Origin: Synechococcus sp. A15-62
GTDB taxonomy: Bacteria > Cyanobacteriota > Cyanobacteriia > PCC-6307 > Cyanobiaceae
Length of the DNA: 64,000 nt
Direction: 5' to 3'
Assembly: GCF_014280075.1 (NCBI RefSeq)
Contig: NZ_CP047950.1
Coordinates: 62,001-126,000 of the forward strand
Shown in pieces: positions 12,915 to 64,000 of this stretch (within the stretch, counting starts at the first letter, position 1; every line of letters begins with the position of its first letter). A program made the position numbers and the translations under genes. Below the pieces are notes generated by a model. The model was given only the letters and a program-made list of their open reading frames with translations, was not told the DNA's origin and did no database searches.

Positions 12915-15620
12915 TCAGGCCGCCAACTGATCCAGCACCTGCCGGGCCCGTTGCACCACGGGCTTGGGAACGCCGGCGAGGCGTGCCGCTTCGATGCCGT
13001 AGCTGCGGCTGGCACCGCCGGCCTGCACCTGATGGAGGAAAACCAGATCCTCCCCGGTTTCCTCCACCAGCACCTGGAAGTTGGCCACGTTGTCGCGTTC
13101 GGCGGCCAGGTTGTTCAGCTCGTGATAGTGGGTGGCGAATACTGTGCGGCTGCCCAGGTCGCCGGCCAGGTGCTCGCTCACGGCCCAGGCGATCGAGAGG
13201 CCATCGAAGGTGGCGGTGCCCCGCCCGATCTCATCGAGCAGCACAAGCGAACGATCGCTGGCGTGGTGAAGGATGTTGGCGGTTTCGGCCATCTCCACCA
13301 TGAAGGTGGACTGGCCGGCGGCCAGATCATCCACAGCACCCACCCGGGTGAAGATCCGATCGGCGATCCCGACCGTGGCGGAGCGGGCCGGCACCCAGCT
13401 GCCGATCTGCGCCATCAATTGGATCAGACCGATCTGGCGCAGATAGCAGCTTTTGCCGCTGGCGTTGGGGCCTGTGAGCACCACCAGATCGGTGCCATCG
13501 CCCAGATGCACGTCATTGGGGGTGAAGGCGGTTTCCACCAGCCGTTGCTCCACCACGGGATGGCGGCTGGCCTCCAGCTGCAGCCCCCGGCCGTTGGTGA
13601 TGGTGGGTGCGCAGTAGCCACCGCTGGCGGCCACATCGGCCAGACCGGTGAGGGCATCGAGGGCGGCAACAGCGCGGGCGGCTTGGCGGATCGGGGCGGC
13701 CATGGCCCCCACCTGCTCGCGCAGCTGGCAGAACAGCTCGTATTCCCGCTGGCAGGCCCGGGCCCGCAGCTGGAAGATGCGGCCCTCCCGCTCCTTGAGA
13801 TCCGGGGTGATGAAGCGTTCTTCGTTGGCCAGGGTCTGGCGCCGGATCCAGTGGTCCGGCACGGCGGTGGCCTTGGCTTTGCTCACCGCCAGGAAGTAGC
13901 CGAAGGTGCGGTGGTGCTGCAGCTTCAAGGTGCTGATGCCACTGCGTTGGCGCTCCTGCTGCTCCTGGTGGCTTAGCCAGGCGTCCTGATCGTCCAGCTG
14001 GTTGCGCAGCCCATCCAGCAGCGGGTCGACGCCGTCATGGATCAGGTCGCCTTCTGAGAGGGAGAGCGGTGGGGCCTCCACCAGGCGGTGGCGAATTGTC
14101 CGGGCCAGCTCCGCCAGGGCTGGATCGGGGCTGAGCAGCTGCTGTAACCACTCCGGTCCCGCGCTGATCGCAGAGTCCAGCCGGGCGGTGAGTTGGGGCA
14201 ACCGTTCCAGGCCATCGGCGATGGCCACCAGATCACGGGCACCGGCATGGCCCGCTCCGGCCCGGCCGGCCAGCCGTTCCAGGTCGCCCATCGGCCGCAG
14301 CAGCTGGCGGATCGCCAGCCGCAGGCTGCGTTCACCCACCAGGCTGCTCACTAGATCCTGGCGCTGCTGAATGGCCTGGTGGTCCATCAACGGTGCTTCC
14401 AGCCAGCGGCGCAGGCAACGGCCGCCCATGGCGGTGAGGGTGCGATCGATCGCCCAGAGCAACGATCCCTGCAACTGGTTGTCCCGCTGGGTGGCGGTGA
14501 GCTCGAGGTTGCGGCGGGTCTGAGCATCCAGCACCAGGGCATCGCCGCGGTGCACGATTGTTGGTACCTCCAGGGGAATGCGGCTGTCCTCCTCCAGGGG
14601 TTGGGTGTCTTGCAGGTAGCGCAGCAGGCCACCGAGGGCTTGCAGGGCCAGGGGGTGCTCCGGCAGGCCGAGGCCATCGAGGCTGCTGAGGCCGTAGTGC
14701 TGCTGCAGGGTGTGCTCCGCCTCCGCTGGGCTGAAGGGGGTGCTGGCCATCGGCGTGAGCCGCAGCCGTTCGGGACACCAGGCCGGCCGCTCAGCATCGA
14801 GGGCGGCCGCCCAGAGCAGTTCGGAGGCCTCCTGCTGGGCCAGCTGCTGGTGCAAGGCGCTGCTGTCTTCCCGTTGCATCACCTGCACCTCGCCGGTGCT
14901 CACATCGGCGCTGGCCAGGCCCCAGCGCAGCGGTTGTTTTCCCTGGGCCGGCTCCACCACCACAGCCGCCAGCCAGTTGTTGCGGCGGGCGCTGAGCATG
15001 CCCTCCTCCAACACGGTGCCGGGGGTCAGCACCCGGGTGATGTCCCGCTTGAGTAGGGCACCCTTGGTGGGGGTGGTTTCCAGTTGATCGCAAAGGGCCA
15101 CGCTGTAGCCCTGCTTGATCAGTTCGGCGCAGTAGCGCTCGGCGGCGTGGTGAGGGATGCCCGCCATCGGTACCCGCCCGATCGCCTTGCCACCTTCCTT
15201 GCCGGTGAGGGTGAGCTCCAGCACCCGGGAGAGTTCGATGGCATCTTCGAAGAAGCACTCGAAGAAGTCGCCCAGGCGGTAGAGCAGCACCCGTTCTGGA
15301 TGGGCCGCTTTGAGCTCCACGTAGTGGCGCAGCATCGGTGTGAGCTGCAGCGGGTCGAGCTGGCTGTGGTGGGCCCAGGCCGGTTCGTCGCTGCTGGGTT
15401 CTGAATGGTTTGCAGCCGGGGATTCGCTGCTGACCTCGCTTGACGTGGTCTGGCGCGTTCGGGGCCGGGCAGCGGCATCGGCTCCGAGTTCGTCGTCGCT
15501 GAGGTCGTGGCTGGCGGCCTCAGGTTCGCCGGTGGGTGCAGTCGGTGCGGCCGGCTCAGGTGCCCCGAACAGATTGCCCTGCAGGGCGTCGTCAGGGGAC
15601 TGGGACGCGGACCGGGGCAT
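12915..15620 (-). CDS. mutS: DNA mismatch repair protein MutS
   Basis: Recognises base mismatches and small loops and couples ATP hydrolysis to repair. The 901-residue protein carries an extra Pro/Ala/Glu-rich N-terminal extension of about 85 residues. The mismatch-binding domain follows with the Phe-X-Glu wedge in [13 protein letters not shown], then connector, lever and clamp regions, and the C-terminal ATPase with Walker A GPNASGKS (about residue 715), Walker [12 protein letters not shown] and the conserved ATHYHEL. The start is the ATG at 15620 ([11 protein letters not shown]). A GNAT gene lies 52 bp upstream on the same strand. Confidence 0.96.
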
Positions 15621-59376: not shown

Positions 59377-61266
59377 ATGTGCGGAATCGTCGCCCTGGTG
59401 GGCTCCCGAGAAGCGGCGCCTCAGCTCCTGGAGGGCTTGCGGCAGCTGGAGTACCGCGGTTACGACTCCGCTGGGATCGCCACGGTGGCTGCTCAGGGGC
59501 AGTTGACTTGCCTGCGGGCTGAGGGCAAGCTACGTAACCTCACCGCTCGTTTTGAAGCACAAGGCGCGCCGGGGCAATGCGGCATTGGCCACACCCGCTG
59601 GGCCACCCATGGGAAGCCGGAAGAGCGCAACGCCCACCCGCACCGCAGCAGCGATGGTGCAGTGGCAGTGGTGCAGAACGGGATTATTGAGAACCATCGG
59701 ACTCTGCGGGAGCAGCTGGAGGCTGCAGGGGTGGAGTTCCAGTCGGACACCGACACCGAGGTGATTCCGCATCTATTTGCAGCGGAACTGCAGCAGTTGC
59801 AAGCCGCGGGCGGCACCGCAGGTGGTGCGTTGTTGCTCCAAGCCCTGCAGCGGGTGCTGCCCCAGCTGCAGGGGGCCTACGCCCTGGCCGTGATCTGGGA
59901 TCAGGCGCCGGGGGCGCTGGTGGTGGCCCGCAAGGCTGCACCCCTGTTGATCGGCTTGGGGGAAGGGGAATTCCTCTGTGCCAGCGACACGCCGGCCCTG
60001 GCGGGCTTTACCCGCACGATCCTGCCGATGGAGGACGGCGAGGTGGCCTTGCTCTCACCCCTCGGCGTTGAGCTTTATGACGCAGTCGGTGCCCGTCAGC
60101 AACGCATGCCCACCCAGCTCAGCGGTGTGGATCACGTGGCCGACAAGCGGGAGTTCCGTCACTTCATGCTCAAGGAAATCCATGAGCAACCGGAGACCGC
60201 AGAGTTGTGGGTGGCGCGCCATCTGCCTCAGGGACTGCCGCCGGAGCAGCCGGTGGCTCTGCCGTTGGACGATGCGTTTTACGCCGGCATTGAGCGGATT
60301 CAGATCCTGGCCTGCGGCACAAGCCGCCATGCCGCGATGGTTGGGGCCTACCTGCTGGAGCAGTTCGCCGGCCTTCCCACATCGGTGCACTACGCCAGTG
60401 AGTTCCGCTATGCGCCGCCGCCGCTCGCCCCTCATACCATCACGATTGGTGTGACCCAGTCGGGTGAGACGGCCGACACCCTGGCCGCCCTGGCGATGGA
60501 GGCAGAGCGACGTCTGGCCTATGGGGATCCAGCCTTTGCTCCCCGGCAGCTGGGGGTGACCAACCGTCCGGAAAGTTCCCTCTCGCGTCAGGTGCCCCAC
60601 ATCCTCGACATCGGGGCCGGAATCGAAGTGGGCGTGGCGGCCACCAAGACCTTCCTCGGTCAGCTGCTGGCCTTCTATGGCCTGGCGATGGCCTTTGCAG
60701 CCCGCCGTGGTGCTCGCCCCACAGCGGAGATCAAGGCTCTGGCGGACGAACTGCGCGGTCTGCCTCAGCAGTTGCGCCAGTTGGTGGATCTGCACGACCA
60801 GCGCTCTGAAGCCCTGGCTCCTCGCTTTGCCGACACCCAGGATGTGATTTTCCTGGGGCGGGGAATCAACTACCCGATCGCCCTGGAGGGAGCGTTGAAG
60901 CTCAAGGAAATCAGCTACATCCACGCCGAGGGCTACCCGGCCGGTGAGATGAAGCATGGTCCGATCGCCCTGCTCGATTCCCGGGTGCCGGTGGTTTCGA
61001 TCGCGGTGCCCGGTTTGGTGTTTGAGAAGGTGCTCAGCAATGCCCAGGAAGCCAAGGCTCGCGACGCTCAGCTGATCGGTGTGGCGCCCCAGGGGCCGGA
61101 CACTGATCTGTTTGATGAACTGTTGCCGGTTCCTTCGGTGAGCGAGTGGATCAGCCCCCTGCTCACCGTGGTTCCCATGCAGTTGCTGAGCTATCACATC
61201 GCCGCCCATCGCGGCCTGGATGTGGATCAACCCCGCAACCTGGCCAAGAGCGTCACGGTGGAGTGA
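59377..61266 (+). CDS. glmS: Glutamine-fructose-6-phosphate aminotransferase
   Basis: Makes glucosamine-6-phosphate for peptidoglycan and surface glycans. The 629-residue protein has the N-terminal Cys of the glutaminase (MCGIVALVGS), GHTRWATHG, NGIIENH, and two SIS isomerase domains (ILACGTSRHAAMVG; IFLGRGINYPIALEGALKLKEISYIHAEGYPAGEMKHGPIAL-type core), ending LAKSVTVE. The mature start after Met removal exposes Cys, so the ATG at 59377 is fixed by the fold. No glmS ribozyme fits in the 54 bp upstream. An internal or upstream promoter is needed. Confidence 0.96.
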   Translation: MCGIVALVGSREAAPQLLEGLRQLEYRGYDSAGIATVAAQGQLTCLRAEGKLRNLTARFEAQGAPGQCGIGHTRWATHGKPEERNAHPHRSSDGAVAVVQNGIIENHRTLREQLEAAGVEFQSDTDTEVIPHLFAAELQQLQAAGGTAGGALLLQALQRVLPQLQGAYALAVIWDQAPGALVVARKAAPLLIGLGEGEFLCASDTPALAGFTRTILPMEDGEVALLSPLGVELYDAVGARQQRMPTQLSGVDHVADKREFRHFMLKEIHEQPETAELWVARHLPQGLPPEQPVALPLDDAFYAGIERIQILACGTSRHAAMVGAYLLEQFAGLPTSVHYASEFRYAPPPLAPHTITIGVTQSGETADTLAALAMEAERRLAYGDPAFAPRQLGVTNRPESSLSRQVPHILDIGAGIEVGVAATKTFLGQLLAFYGLAMAFAARRGARPTAEIKALADELRGLPQQLRQLVDLHDQRSEALAPRFADTQDVIFLGRGINYPIALEGALKLKEISYIHAEGYPAGEMKHGPIALLDSRVPVVSIAVPGLVFEKVLSNAQEAKARDAQLIGVAPQGPDTDLFDELLPVPSVSEWISPLLTVVPMQLLSYHIAAHRGLDVDQPRNLAKSVTVE

Positions 61267-61269
61267 GCC

Positions 61270-61560
61270 TCATCTGGCATTCATGCTCAGATCACTATGG
61301 CTGAGGTCGCTACGGCCGTAGCGGTCCTGGAAGCGGACGATGTTGTCTTCACCGAGGTACTCGCCGTCCTGCACTTCAATTAGTTCCACGGCTATCTGGC
61401 CGGGGTGGGACAGGAGGTGGTTGCCGCCATCGGGATGTAGGTGCTCTGCTTGTCCCCAACAGTTTCGCCTTTCCTGATCGTTAGTAGATGGCTTATACAG
61501 CCAGGGCTTGAGAGGAGTTTCACGTAATCTTCTACGACGCTGATCTCGCCGTTGCTGATG
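61270..61560 (-). pseudogene. Decayed mannose-phosphate isomerase/guanylyltransferase-type cupin
   Basis: A remnant of the C-terminal cupin of the ManC / type II mannose-6-phosphate isomerase family. The frame ending at 61270 reads HPGQIAVELIEVQDGEYLGEDNIVRF then DRYGR, which matches the family's ending. The preceding conserved QSTYIP is in a different minus-strand frame (around 61428-61446). The two parts are therefore joined by a frameshift, and the usual residues between a PW-x-Y segment near 61495 and QSTYIP are missing. It implies a former sugar-nucleotide gene next to glmS. Confidence 0.6.
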
Positions 61561-64000
61561 TCTTCTACTGTGCGTATACAAATACTGAATAGCTGCCAGG
61601 CACTAGGTATCGAGTTGCGTTACCTACACCTTGCTGAGGAAGAAGAAGATGTGTTGACAGCCCTTCTGCAGGATGCAATTGATTTGCGAGCCCAGGGCCA
61701 GGCTGATCGTTCGCTTGCATTGCTGGATGCAGCTGTTGAGTTTGGAGTGAGGAGCGGGTTGGTAGATGACAACCGCGCATGGGCTTTAGTGGGTCTGGGT
61801 CGGCGTTCAGAAGCGATTGGACTTTGGAATGAGTTGCTGGTTCACCAAGAGGAAGGTCTGCGGACCCAGGCGCAAGACAATTTGAGGCTGCTAGCTGCGG
61901 AGCTCAGCAATCAGCTGAAGCAACTGGCTGAAGCGGCTGGGGAGAGCCTGGTCGAATTCGAGGGAAGAGAGTTCAGTGCGCTGTCTGAACTAGAGCAGCC
62001 TCTAGTGGAAGCATCGATTCGCTTACGCAGCGGAGGAAATAACGAATTGTCGCTGCAACTGCTGGATGCAGCTGTTGAGTTTGGAGTGAGGAGCGGGTTG
62101 GTAGATGACAACCGCGCATGGTCTTTAGTGGGTCTGGGTCGGCGTTCAGAAGCGATTGGACTTTGGAATGAGTTGCTGGTTCACCAAGAGGAAGGTCTGC
62201 GGACCCAGGCGCAAGACAATTTGAGGCTGCAAACTGCGGCTTTAGTGGGTCTGGGTCGGCGTTCAGAAGCGATTGGACTTTGGAATGAGTTGCTGGTTCA
62301 CCAAGAGGAAGGTCTGCGGACCCAGGCGCAAGACAATTTGAGGCTGCTAGCTGCGGAGCTCAGCAATCAGCTGAAGCAACTGGCTGAAGCGGCTGGGGAG
62401 AGCCTGGTCGAATTCGAGGGAAGAGAGTTCAGTGCGCTGTCTGAACTAGAGCAGCCTCTAGTGGAAGCATCGATTCGCTTACGCAGCGGAGGAAATAACG
62501 AATTGTCGCTGCAACTGCTGGATGCAGCTGTTGAGTTTGGAGTGAGGAGCGGGTTGGTAGATGACAACCGCGCATGGTCTTTAGTGGGTCTGGGTCGGCG
62601 TTCAGAAGCGATTGGACTTTGGAATGAGTTGCTGGTTCACCAAGAGGAAGGTCTGCGGACCCAGGCGCAAGACAATTTGAGGCTGCAAACTGCGGCTTTA
62701 GTGGGTCTGGGTCGGCGTTCAGAAGCGATTGGACTTTGGAATGAGTTGCTGGTTCACCAAGAGGAAGGTCTGCGGACCCAGGCGCAAGACAATTTGAGGC
62801 TGCTAGCTGCGGAGCTCAGCAATCAGCTGAAGCAACTGGCTGAAGCGGCTGGGGAGAGCCTGGTCGAATTCGAGGGAAGAGAGTTCAGTGCGCTGTCTGA
62901 ACTAGAGCAGCCTCTAGTGGAAGCATCGATTCGCTTACGCAGCGGAGGAAATAACGAATTGTCGCTGCAACTGCTGGATGCAGCTGTTGAGTTTGGAGTG
63001 AGGAGCGGGTTGGTAGATGACAACCGCGCATGGTCTTTAGTGGGTCTGGGTCGGCGTTCAGAAGCGATTGGACTTTGGAATGAGTTGCTGGTTCACCAAG
63101 AGGAAGGTCTGCGGACCCAGGCGCAAGACAATTTGAGGCTGCAAACTGCGGCTTTAGTGGGTCTGGGTCGGCGTTCAGAAGCGATTGGACTTTGGAATGA
63201 GTTGCTGGTTCACCAAGAGGAAGGTCTGCGGACCCAGGCGCAAGACAATTTGAGGCTGCTAGCTGCGGAGCTCAGCAATCAGCTGAAGCAACTGGCTGAA
63301 GCGGCTGGGGAGAGCCTGGTCGAATTCGAGGGAAGAGAGTTCAGTGCGCTGTCTGAACTAGAGCAGCCTCTAGTGGAAGCATCGATTCGCTTACGCAGCG
63401 GAGGAAATAACGAATTGTCGCTGCAACTGCTGGATGCAGCTGTTGAGTTTGGAGTGAGGAGCGGGTTGGTAGATGACAACCGCGCATGGTCTTTAGTGGG
63501 TCTGGGTCGGCGTTCAGAAGCGATTGGACTTTGGAATGAGTTGCTGGTTCACCAAGAGGAAGGTCTGCGGACCCAGGCGCAAGACAATTTGAGGCTGCAA
63601 ACTGCGGCTTTAGTGGGTCTGGGTCGGCGTTCAGAAGCGATTGGACTTTGGAATGAGTTGCTGGTTCACCAAGAGGAAGGTCTGCGGACCCAGGCGCAAG
63701 ACAATTTGAGGCTGCTAGCTGCGGAGCTCAGCAATCAGCTGAAGCAACTGGCTGAAGCGGCTGGGGAGAGCCTGGTCGAATTCGAGGGAAGAGAGTTCAG
63801 TGCGCTGTCTGAACTAGAGCAGCCTCTAGTGGAAGCATCGATTCGCTTACGCAGCGGAGGAAATAACGAATTGTCGCTGCAACTGCTGGATGCAGCTGTT
63901 GAGTTTGGAGTGAGGAGCGGGTTGGTAGATGACAACCGCGCATGGTCTTTAGTGGGTCTGGGTCGGCGTTCAGAAGCGATTGGACTTTGGAATGAGTTGC
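61558..64000 (+). CDS. Giant tandem-repeat TPR-like protein (3' end outside window)
   Basis: An open frame from an ATG at 61558 (MSSTVRIQILNSCQALGIEL) that runs off the window after 814 codons with no stop. A unique N-terminus of about 54 residues is followed by helical, TPR-like repeats: RSLALLDAAVEFGVRSGLVD, ALVGLGRRSEAIGLWNELLV and a linker with LKQLAEAAGESLVEFEGREF. From 62060 the coding sequence is a head-to-tail array of 152-residue (456-bp) units that I read as identical. The usual role of such repeats is protein binding; family members near polysaccharide genes often carry a C-terminal glycosyl- or sulfotransferase, but none is in view. The region is AT-richer than the core genes. The full length is unknown. 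Confidence 0.85.
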   Translation, partial: MSSTVRIQILNSCQALGIELRYLHLAEEEEDVLTALLQDAIDLRAQGQADRSLALLDAAVEFGVRSGLVDDNRAWALVGLGRRSEAIGLWNELLVHQEEGLRTQAQDNLRLLAAELSNQLKQLAEAAGESLVEFEGREFSALSELEQPLVEASIRLRSGGNNELSLQLLDAAVEFGVRSGLVDDNRAWSLVGLGRRSEAIGLWNELLVHQEEGLRTQAQDNLRLQTAALVGLGRRSEAIGLWNELLVHQEEGLRTQAQDNLRLLAAELSNQLKQLAEAAGESLVEFEGREFSALSELEQPLVEASIRLRSGGNNELSLQLLDAAVEFGVRSGLVDDNRAWSLVGLGRRSEAIGLWNELLVHQEEGLRTQAQDNLRLQTAALVGLGRRSEAIGLWNELLVHQEEGLRTQAQDNLRLLAAELSNQLKQLAEAAGESLVEFEGREFSALSELEQPLVEASIRLRSGGNNELSLQLLDAAVEFGVRSGLVDDNRAWSLVGLGRRSEAIGLWNELLVHQEEGLRTQAQDNLRLQTAALVGLGRRSEAIGLWNELLVHQEEGLRTQAQDNLRLLAAELSNQLKQLAEAAGESLVEFEGREFSALSELEQPLVEASIRLRSGGNNELSLQLLDAAVEFGVRSGLVDDNRAWSLVGLGRRSEAIGLWNELLVHQEEGLRTQAQDNLRLQTAALVGLGRRSEAIGLWNELLVHQEEGLRTQAQDNLRLLAAELSNQLKQLAEAAGESLVEFEGREFSALSELEQPLVEASIRLRSGGNNELSLQLLDAAVEFGVRSGLVDDNRAWSLVGLGRRSEAIGLWNEL
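61721..62059 (+). repeat. First, shorter repeat unit (339 bp, 113 codons)
   Basis: This unit matches the 456-bp units that follow except that it lacks the internal 117-bp duplication. It also differs at single bases, such as TGGGCT versus TGGTCT, changing Ala to Ser at the start of the ALVGLG block. It is the likely ancestral form. Confidence 0.85.
62060..64000 (+). repeat. Tandem array of 456-bp units (four complete plus a partial)
   Basis: Units begin at 62060, 62516, 62972, 63428 and 63884, the last cut by the window. By eye they are identical in sequence. Each contains a nested direct duplication of 117 bp (39 codons; copies start near 62123 and 62240 in the first unit). 456 and 117 are both multiples of three, so the reading frame is kept. 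Confidence 0.93.

Follow-up and report, generated by a model that had tools for sequence, protein, structure and literature searches.

The analysed window comprises 64,000 nucleotides, corresponding to bases 62001-126000 of the single-contig genome (2,294,140 bases) of Synechococcus sp. A15-62 (G000; other genomes carry similar G numbers), and the coordinates below follow the window numbering unless a locus (L number) is given. A TPR-like repeat gene containing an array of 456-bp units runs across the right end of the window and is followed, on the opposite strand, by a coiled-coil gene (Table 1). The TPR-like gene is enclosed by a glmS-like gene and rimM, within a ~33-kb region that carries sulfotransferase and glycosyltransferase domains; gene names used for this setting, such as rimM and channel, are partly based on reading of the sequences.

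Table 1. Features at the repeat gene and in the surrounding island of Synechococcus sp. A15-62
Feature	Position	Strand	Remarks
glmS-like gene flanking the island	59377..61266	+	ORF of 629 aa, named from reading the sequence
manC-like 3'-end remnant, island edge	61303..61464	-	Protein match at genome 123303-123437
TPR-like repeat gene	ATG 61558 or TTG 61552 to stop 65263-65265	+	Frame closed beyond the window
First, partial unit, without inner duplicate	61721..61891	+	Matches the array at a 339-bp lag
456-bp tandem array	61782..64000, on to 64879 past the window	+	4.9 copies in the window, 6.79 in total
First internal 117-bp duplication	62123..62347	+	108/117 bp exact
Coiled-coil gene, conserved C-terminal motif	L022:5529-6767 (window ~66528-67766, past the window)	-	126-bp repeats
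Two gmd-manC pairs, same island	L023:4257-6964 and L088:4280-6987		95.7% identical over 2,708 bp
Decayed single TPR unit	L023:7271-7388		Directly before the middle manC copy (upstream side), with 70% identity to the array unit

The earlier note had described a giant TPR-like gene, possibly for a binding or surface-exposed protein, whose frame leaves the window. The frame does continue past position 64000, but it is not open-ended; since it closes at 65265, the product has 1,235 aa (from the ATG) or 1,237 aa (from the TTG), and 'giant' was not borne out. The ATG is preferred by eye as the likelier start, because it predicts an N-terminus similar to the one in the G086 relative. The TPR-like nature of the protein, on the other hand, was supported by a Pfam TPR_2 score of 56 bits, where the cut-off is 27; the relative in G002 scored 27.6 bits, both values being sums over weak repeats, and that in G016 scored 17.8 bits, under the cut-off. 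The AlphaFold model is all-helical but weak (mean pLDDT 62.8 and pTM 0.27; two sequences), and the top Foldseek matches include TPR solenoids, e.g. O-GlcNAc transferase (OGT), at low TM-scores (0.14-0.21 to the query). Designed PPR proteins were the best profile matches among solved structures and were taken as a shared solenoid signal only. Matches of the repeat proteins to NCBIfam, far under the cut-offs, were rejected as repeat-inflated, as were odd Pfam matches to CaiF_GrlA, which just passes its cut-off, and CENP-F, which is far below it.

The in-frame 456-bp units reported by the earlier note were confirmed, as was the lack of base differences between them. Tandem Repeats Finder detected the part of the array inside the window with a period of 456 bp and 100% matches, and lagged comparison in the surrounding genome extended the array to 3,098 bp in total, with 0 mismatches over 2,642 consecutive positions compared with their partners 456 bp further on and 0 of 456 variable columns over six full copies. 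Chance is no explanation for this array, because the program, at its threshold, reported just one further array in the 64-kb window, 48 bp long. If the assembled copies are real, the dS within the array is less than about 0.0077 (star tree). Copies without differences therefore support recent amplification or homogenisation, as the earlier note had proposed.

A feature missed by the earlier note is that the 456-bp unit is itself composite, consisting of a 339-bp unit and a 117-bp internal duplication of part of that unit (152 residues = 113 + 39). The first, partial unit matches the array over 62 and 108 bp with one mismatch in between, and a C-terminal cap distinct from the units follows the last of them. 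Most simply, a 339-bp unit would have arisen first, the internal 117-bp duplication would have followed, and the composite would then have been multiplied. In the structural model, we read the 39-residue duplicate as one probable extra helical hairpin.

Relatives of the TPR-like gene

Matches to the TPR-like protein were found in 9 of 34 genomes of the same genus, and profile matches at E 1e-8 in 20 of 400 genomes of the family, A15-62 being included in both counts. G002, a genome of the same genus, contains its own 339-bp unit, which is identical over 583 lagged positions (~2.7 copies, about 922 bp). The units of G002 and A15-62 are alike at 276 of 339 nt (81%; dN 0.092, dS 0.76), and the C-terminal caps at 292 of 399 nt (dN 0.257, dS 0.67). 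The low dN/dS of the unit (about 0.12) favours a translated, constrained protein. Because the units are identical within each array (0 differences among those of A15-62, a value that depends on the assembly), only 81% alike between the arrays, and joined to related caps, the two arrays were homogenised or re-amplified separately after the species split, with the cap common to both. Diverged units are present in G016 (Synechococcus sp. AG-679-D13), as would be seen in an unexpanded form of the gene. This strain provided the single relative among 236 stretches of genome contigs that matched a sequence pattern, and none of the 164 matching stretches of viral contigs encoded a relative.

The repeat reading took in 17 of 18 matches, which represent 15 genomes among the 20 positive ones; the match at 13629 in G111, a 20-aa misread, was left out, as were G030, G033, G015, G011, and G216. 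Four of the 17 ORFs contain 300-nt stretches whose identity to a later copy is 93% or more, at lags of 456 (A15-62), 339 (G002), 378 (G251), and 705 (G168, at 93%), and G251 and G168 belong to other genera than A15-62. The whole TPR-like array of G251 contains 6.4 copies at 92%. Judged from these sequences, the occurrence of near-identical arrays in the TPR-like family is not dependent on the A15-62 genome alone.

The convergent coiled-coil gene

The coiled-coil gene downstream of the TPR-like gene of A15-62 is also repetitive, with 4.9 copies of its unit at 97%. Ten of the 20 TPR-positive genomes have TPR-like and coil genes tail to tail within 1.5 kb of each other, but eight of these ten pairs supplied the coil profile, which leaves G003 and G182 as the independent finds. 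The profile search detected no coil neighbour in the other ten TPR-positive genomes, among which the TPR-like gene of G205 is located at a contig edge and G030 has a coil match 10 kb away. Coil matches are commoner in the family than TPR-like matches, being found in 52 of 400 genomes at E 1e-5.

The coil units are 42 (A15-62), 49 (G002), 77 (G168), and 42 aa (G251) long, all of which are whole heptads. The coil array of G168 (L094:7915-11664) comprises 13 full copies of 231 bp that vary in a single column, whose states occur in the order TGTTGGTTGGTTT; we read this block order as indicating that several units were probably copied together, which is a mark of unequal exchange. The TPR-like gene beside this array is less regular. 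Variable-column counts for the coil arrays of G251 and A15-62 were not used, the last copy being out of register in both. No co-variation in length between the TPR-like and coil genes was seen at six loci compared by eye, with no statistic. The coil proteins of G251 (L101:3769-4713) and G086 (L099:5923-6819) appear, by eye, to have a hydrophobic start, unlike those of A15-62 and G002. In open-licence PMC papers, we found neither a description of this convergent pair of expandable genes nor a match to the coil motif.

Assembly and copy number

The earlier note had raised the possibility of an assembly artefact, and this was sharpened, not settled, by the numbering of the contig. The Synechococcus genomes of PMC7522525 are numbered from 174 bp before dnaN and were sequenced as Illumina paired-end plus mate-pair (4-10 kb) libraries or as 250-bp shotgun reads, with closure by manual finishing; three KORDI strains, sequenced by 454, are the exceptions. 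Among 15 contig starts examined, dnaN lies at base 174 in A15-62 and likewise in G013, G021, G023, and G024, at 247 in G001, and at 231 in G002; one start contains only part of dnaN, and seven showed no match. Because its numbering follows the rule of that set, the A15-62 genome probably belongs to it and is hence Illumina-only. Since single copies within a perfect 3.1-kb array cannot be verified with short reads, the exact copy number and the perfect identity are provisional and may be finishing products.

In its strongest form, this explanation holds that the gene and the repeat are real but that finishing largely created the perfect identity and the count of 6.8 copies, by collapsing units that differed in number, or slightly in sequence, into one repeated consensus. 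In addition to the dnaN position, it draws on PMC4559175, a pipeline paper that calls collapsed repeats a problem, and on PMC9704523, in which short reads are said to fail to resolve such repeats. Against it, an array of 3.1 kb is short enough to be spanned by mate pairs of 4-10 kb, which could have checked, and bounded, its length; G002, in which dnaN lies at 231 and not 174, also contains identical units over about 922 bp; and the coil array of G168 retains a single-base difference in ordered blocks, which argues that arrays of this family are not in general pasted consensus. We regard a finishing product of this extent as a minority possibility.

Glycan island and proposed role

Sulfotransferase and glycosyltransferase domains were found in the scanned neighbours at four of five loci (A15-62, G003, G086, and G251), whereas the scanned neighbour in G168 showed no Pfam family, and G018 and G111 carry units of the TPR-like family in fusion with GT2 domains. 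The gene does not occupy one fixed locus, a possibility that was rejected on gene order: it is located between glmS and the full manC copies in A15-62, at the end of the series glmS, manC, rimM, and channel in G002, and likewise after the channel gene in G003. The manC remnant at the island edge of A15-62 is a third copy of manC, 76% identical in DNA sequence to each of the two full copies across 160 bp.

These neighbours and the GT2 fusions favour a role in glycan assembly, and the reading that we prefer, with a little better than even confidence, is that the gene encodes a TPR-like alpha-solenoid of a surface-glycan island that has been lengthened between its own repeats. Unequal recombination or slippage between the repeats would have enlarged the gene, with the 339-bp unit gaining its internal duplication before the composite was multiplied. 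The product would be a cytoplasmic scaffold that, perhaps together with the coil partner, organises the glycosyltransferases and sulfotransferases of the island, and the number of repeats would set both the length of the scaffold and its count of binding sites.

A neutral origin, in which recombination adds and removes repeats in an island gene that the cell can do without and the resulting length serves no function, would account for the patchy occurrence of the family, for the decayed unit elsewhere in the island, and for unit lengths that differ in every lineage. It fits poorly with the low dN/dS of the unit, with frames that stay open throughout the arrays, and with the whole heptads of the coil units in the four arrays measured, and we consider it a minority possibility. 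Surface exposure, which the earlier note had suggested, found no support, since no signal peptide or anchor was seen by eye in the full TPR-like protein sequence and two relatives are fused to glycosyltransferase domains. A length-variable, surface-exposed stalk of the Periscope kind thus appears highly improbable. The A15-62 protein does resemble Periscope Proteins, as described in PMC9704523, in that its tandem units exceed 50 residues, show very high identity in their DNA and are expected to vary in number via homologous recombination, but its repeats are of the TPR type and, unlike those proteins, it shows no sign of surface export by eye.

Some components of the preferred reading have precedents. 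Recently amplified TPR arrays with identical central repeats have been described in cyanobacteria, e.g. Calothrix sp. 336/3 (PMC5074805), and PMC9218822 mentions the continuous amplification of coiled coils and TPR solenoids as general. As in Calothrix, TPR-type units with identical central copies have been amplified separately in each relative; unlike those arrays, which grow by single hairpins, the A15-62 array multiplies a composite 152-residue unit and has a glycan island as its setting, where the neighbouring coiled-coil gene is also growing. High-identity TPR arrays of cyanobacteria are thus already in print, and the new part, for which no description was found, is the conserved pair of expandable genes.

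A more specific reading, in which the pair is an adjustable ruler for surface sugar chains, would have the alpha-solenoid hold the glycan enzymes and the coiled coil change length in whole heptads; in both genes, recombination among nearly identical tandem copies would do the re-tuning. PMC11231755 describes coiled coils that act as rulers in O-polysaccharide assembly (WbdD, WbbB, and ORF7-O4, the last with a TPR-like bundle), and the A15-62 locus resembles them in having a glycan-locus coiled coil whose length could matter, although TPR and coil are here separate convergent genes. Evidence against the ruler comes from domain searches: the four coil proteins scanned (A15-62, G168, G251, and G086) contain no Pfam domain of a WbdD-type terminating enzyme. 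Searches bearing on ABC-transporter-dependent glycan export count against it less clearly: no Wzt_C match was found in the A15-62 genome, and the two ABC2_membrane matches above the cut-off lie far from the island. A Wzz match in the same genome is under its cut-off. We regard the ruler as unlikely.

Surface glycans are thought to govern the encounters of marine Synechococcus with phages and grazers. The recurrence of expansion in the TPR-like gene and the adjoining coil gene hints at a length-adjustable protein pair, and a ruler, if true, would let a lineage alter its glycan chain length quickly. Such control of length would be missed or distorted by short-read genomes; for these cells, with their small genomes, a conserved pair growing in clean tandem units would provide a reversible means of controlling length.
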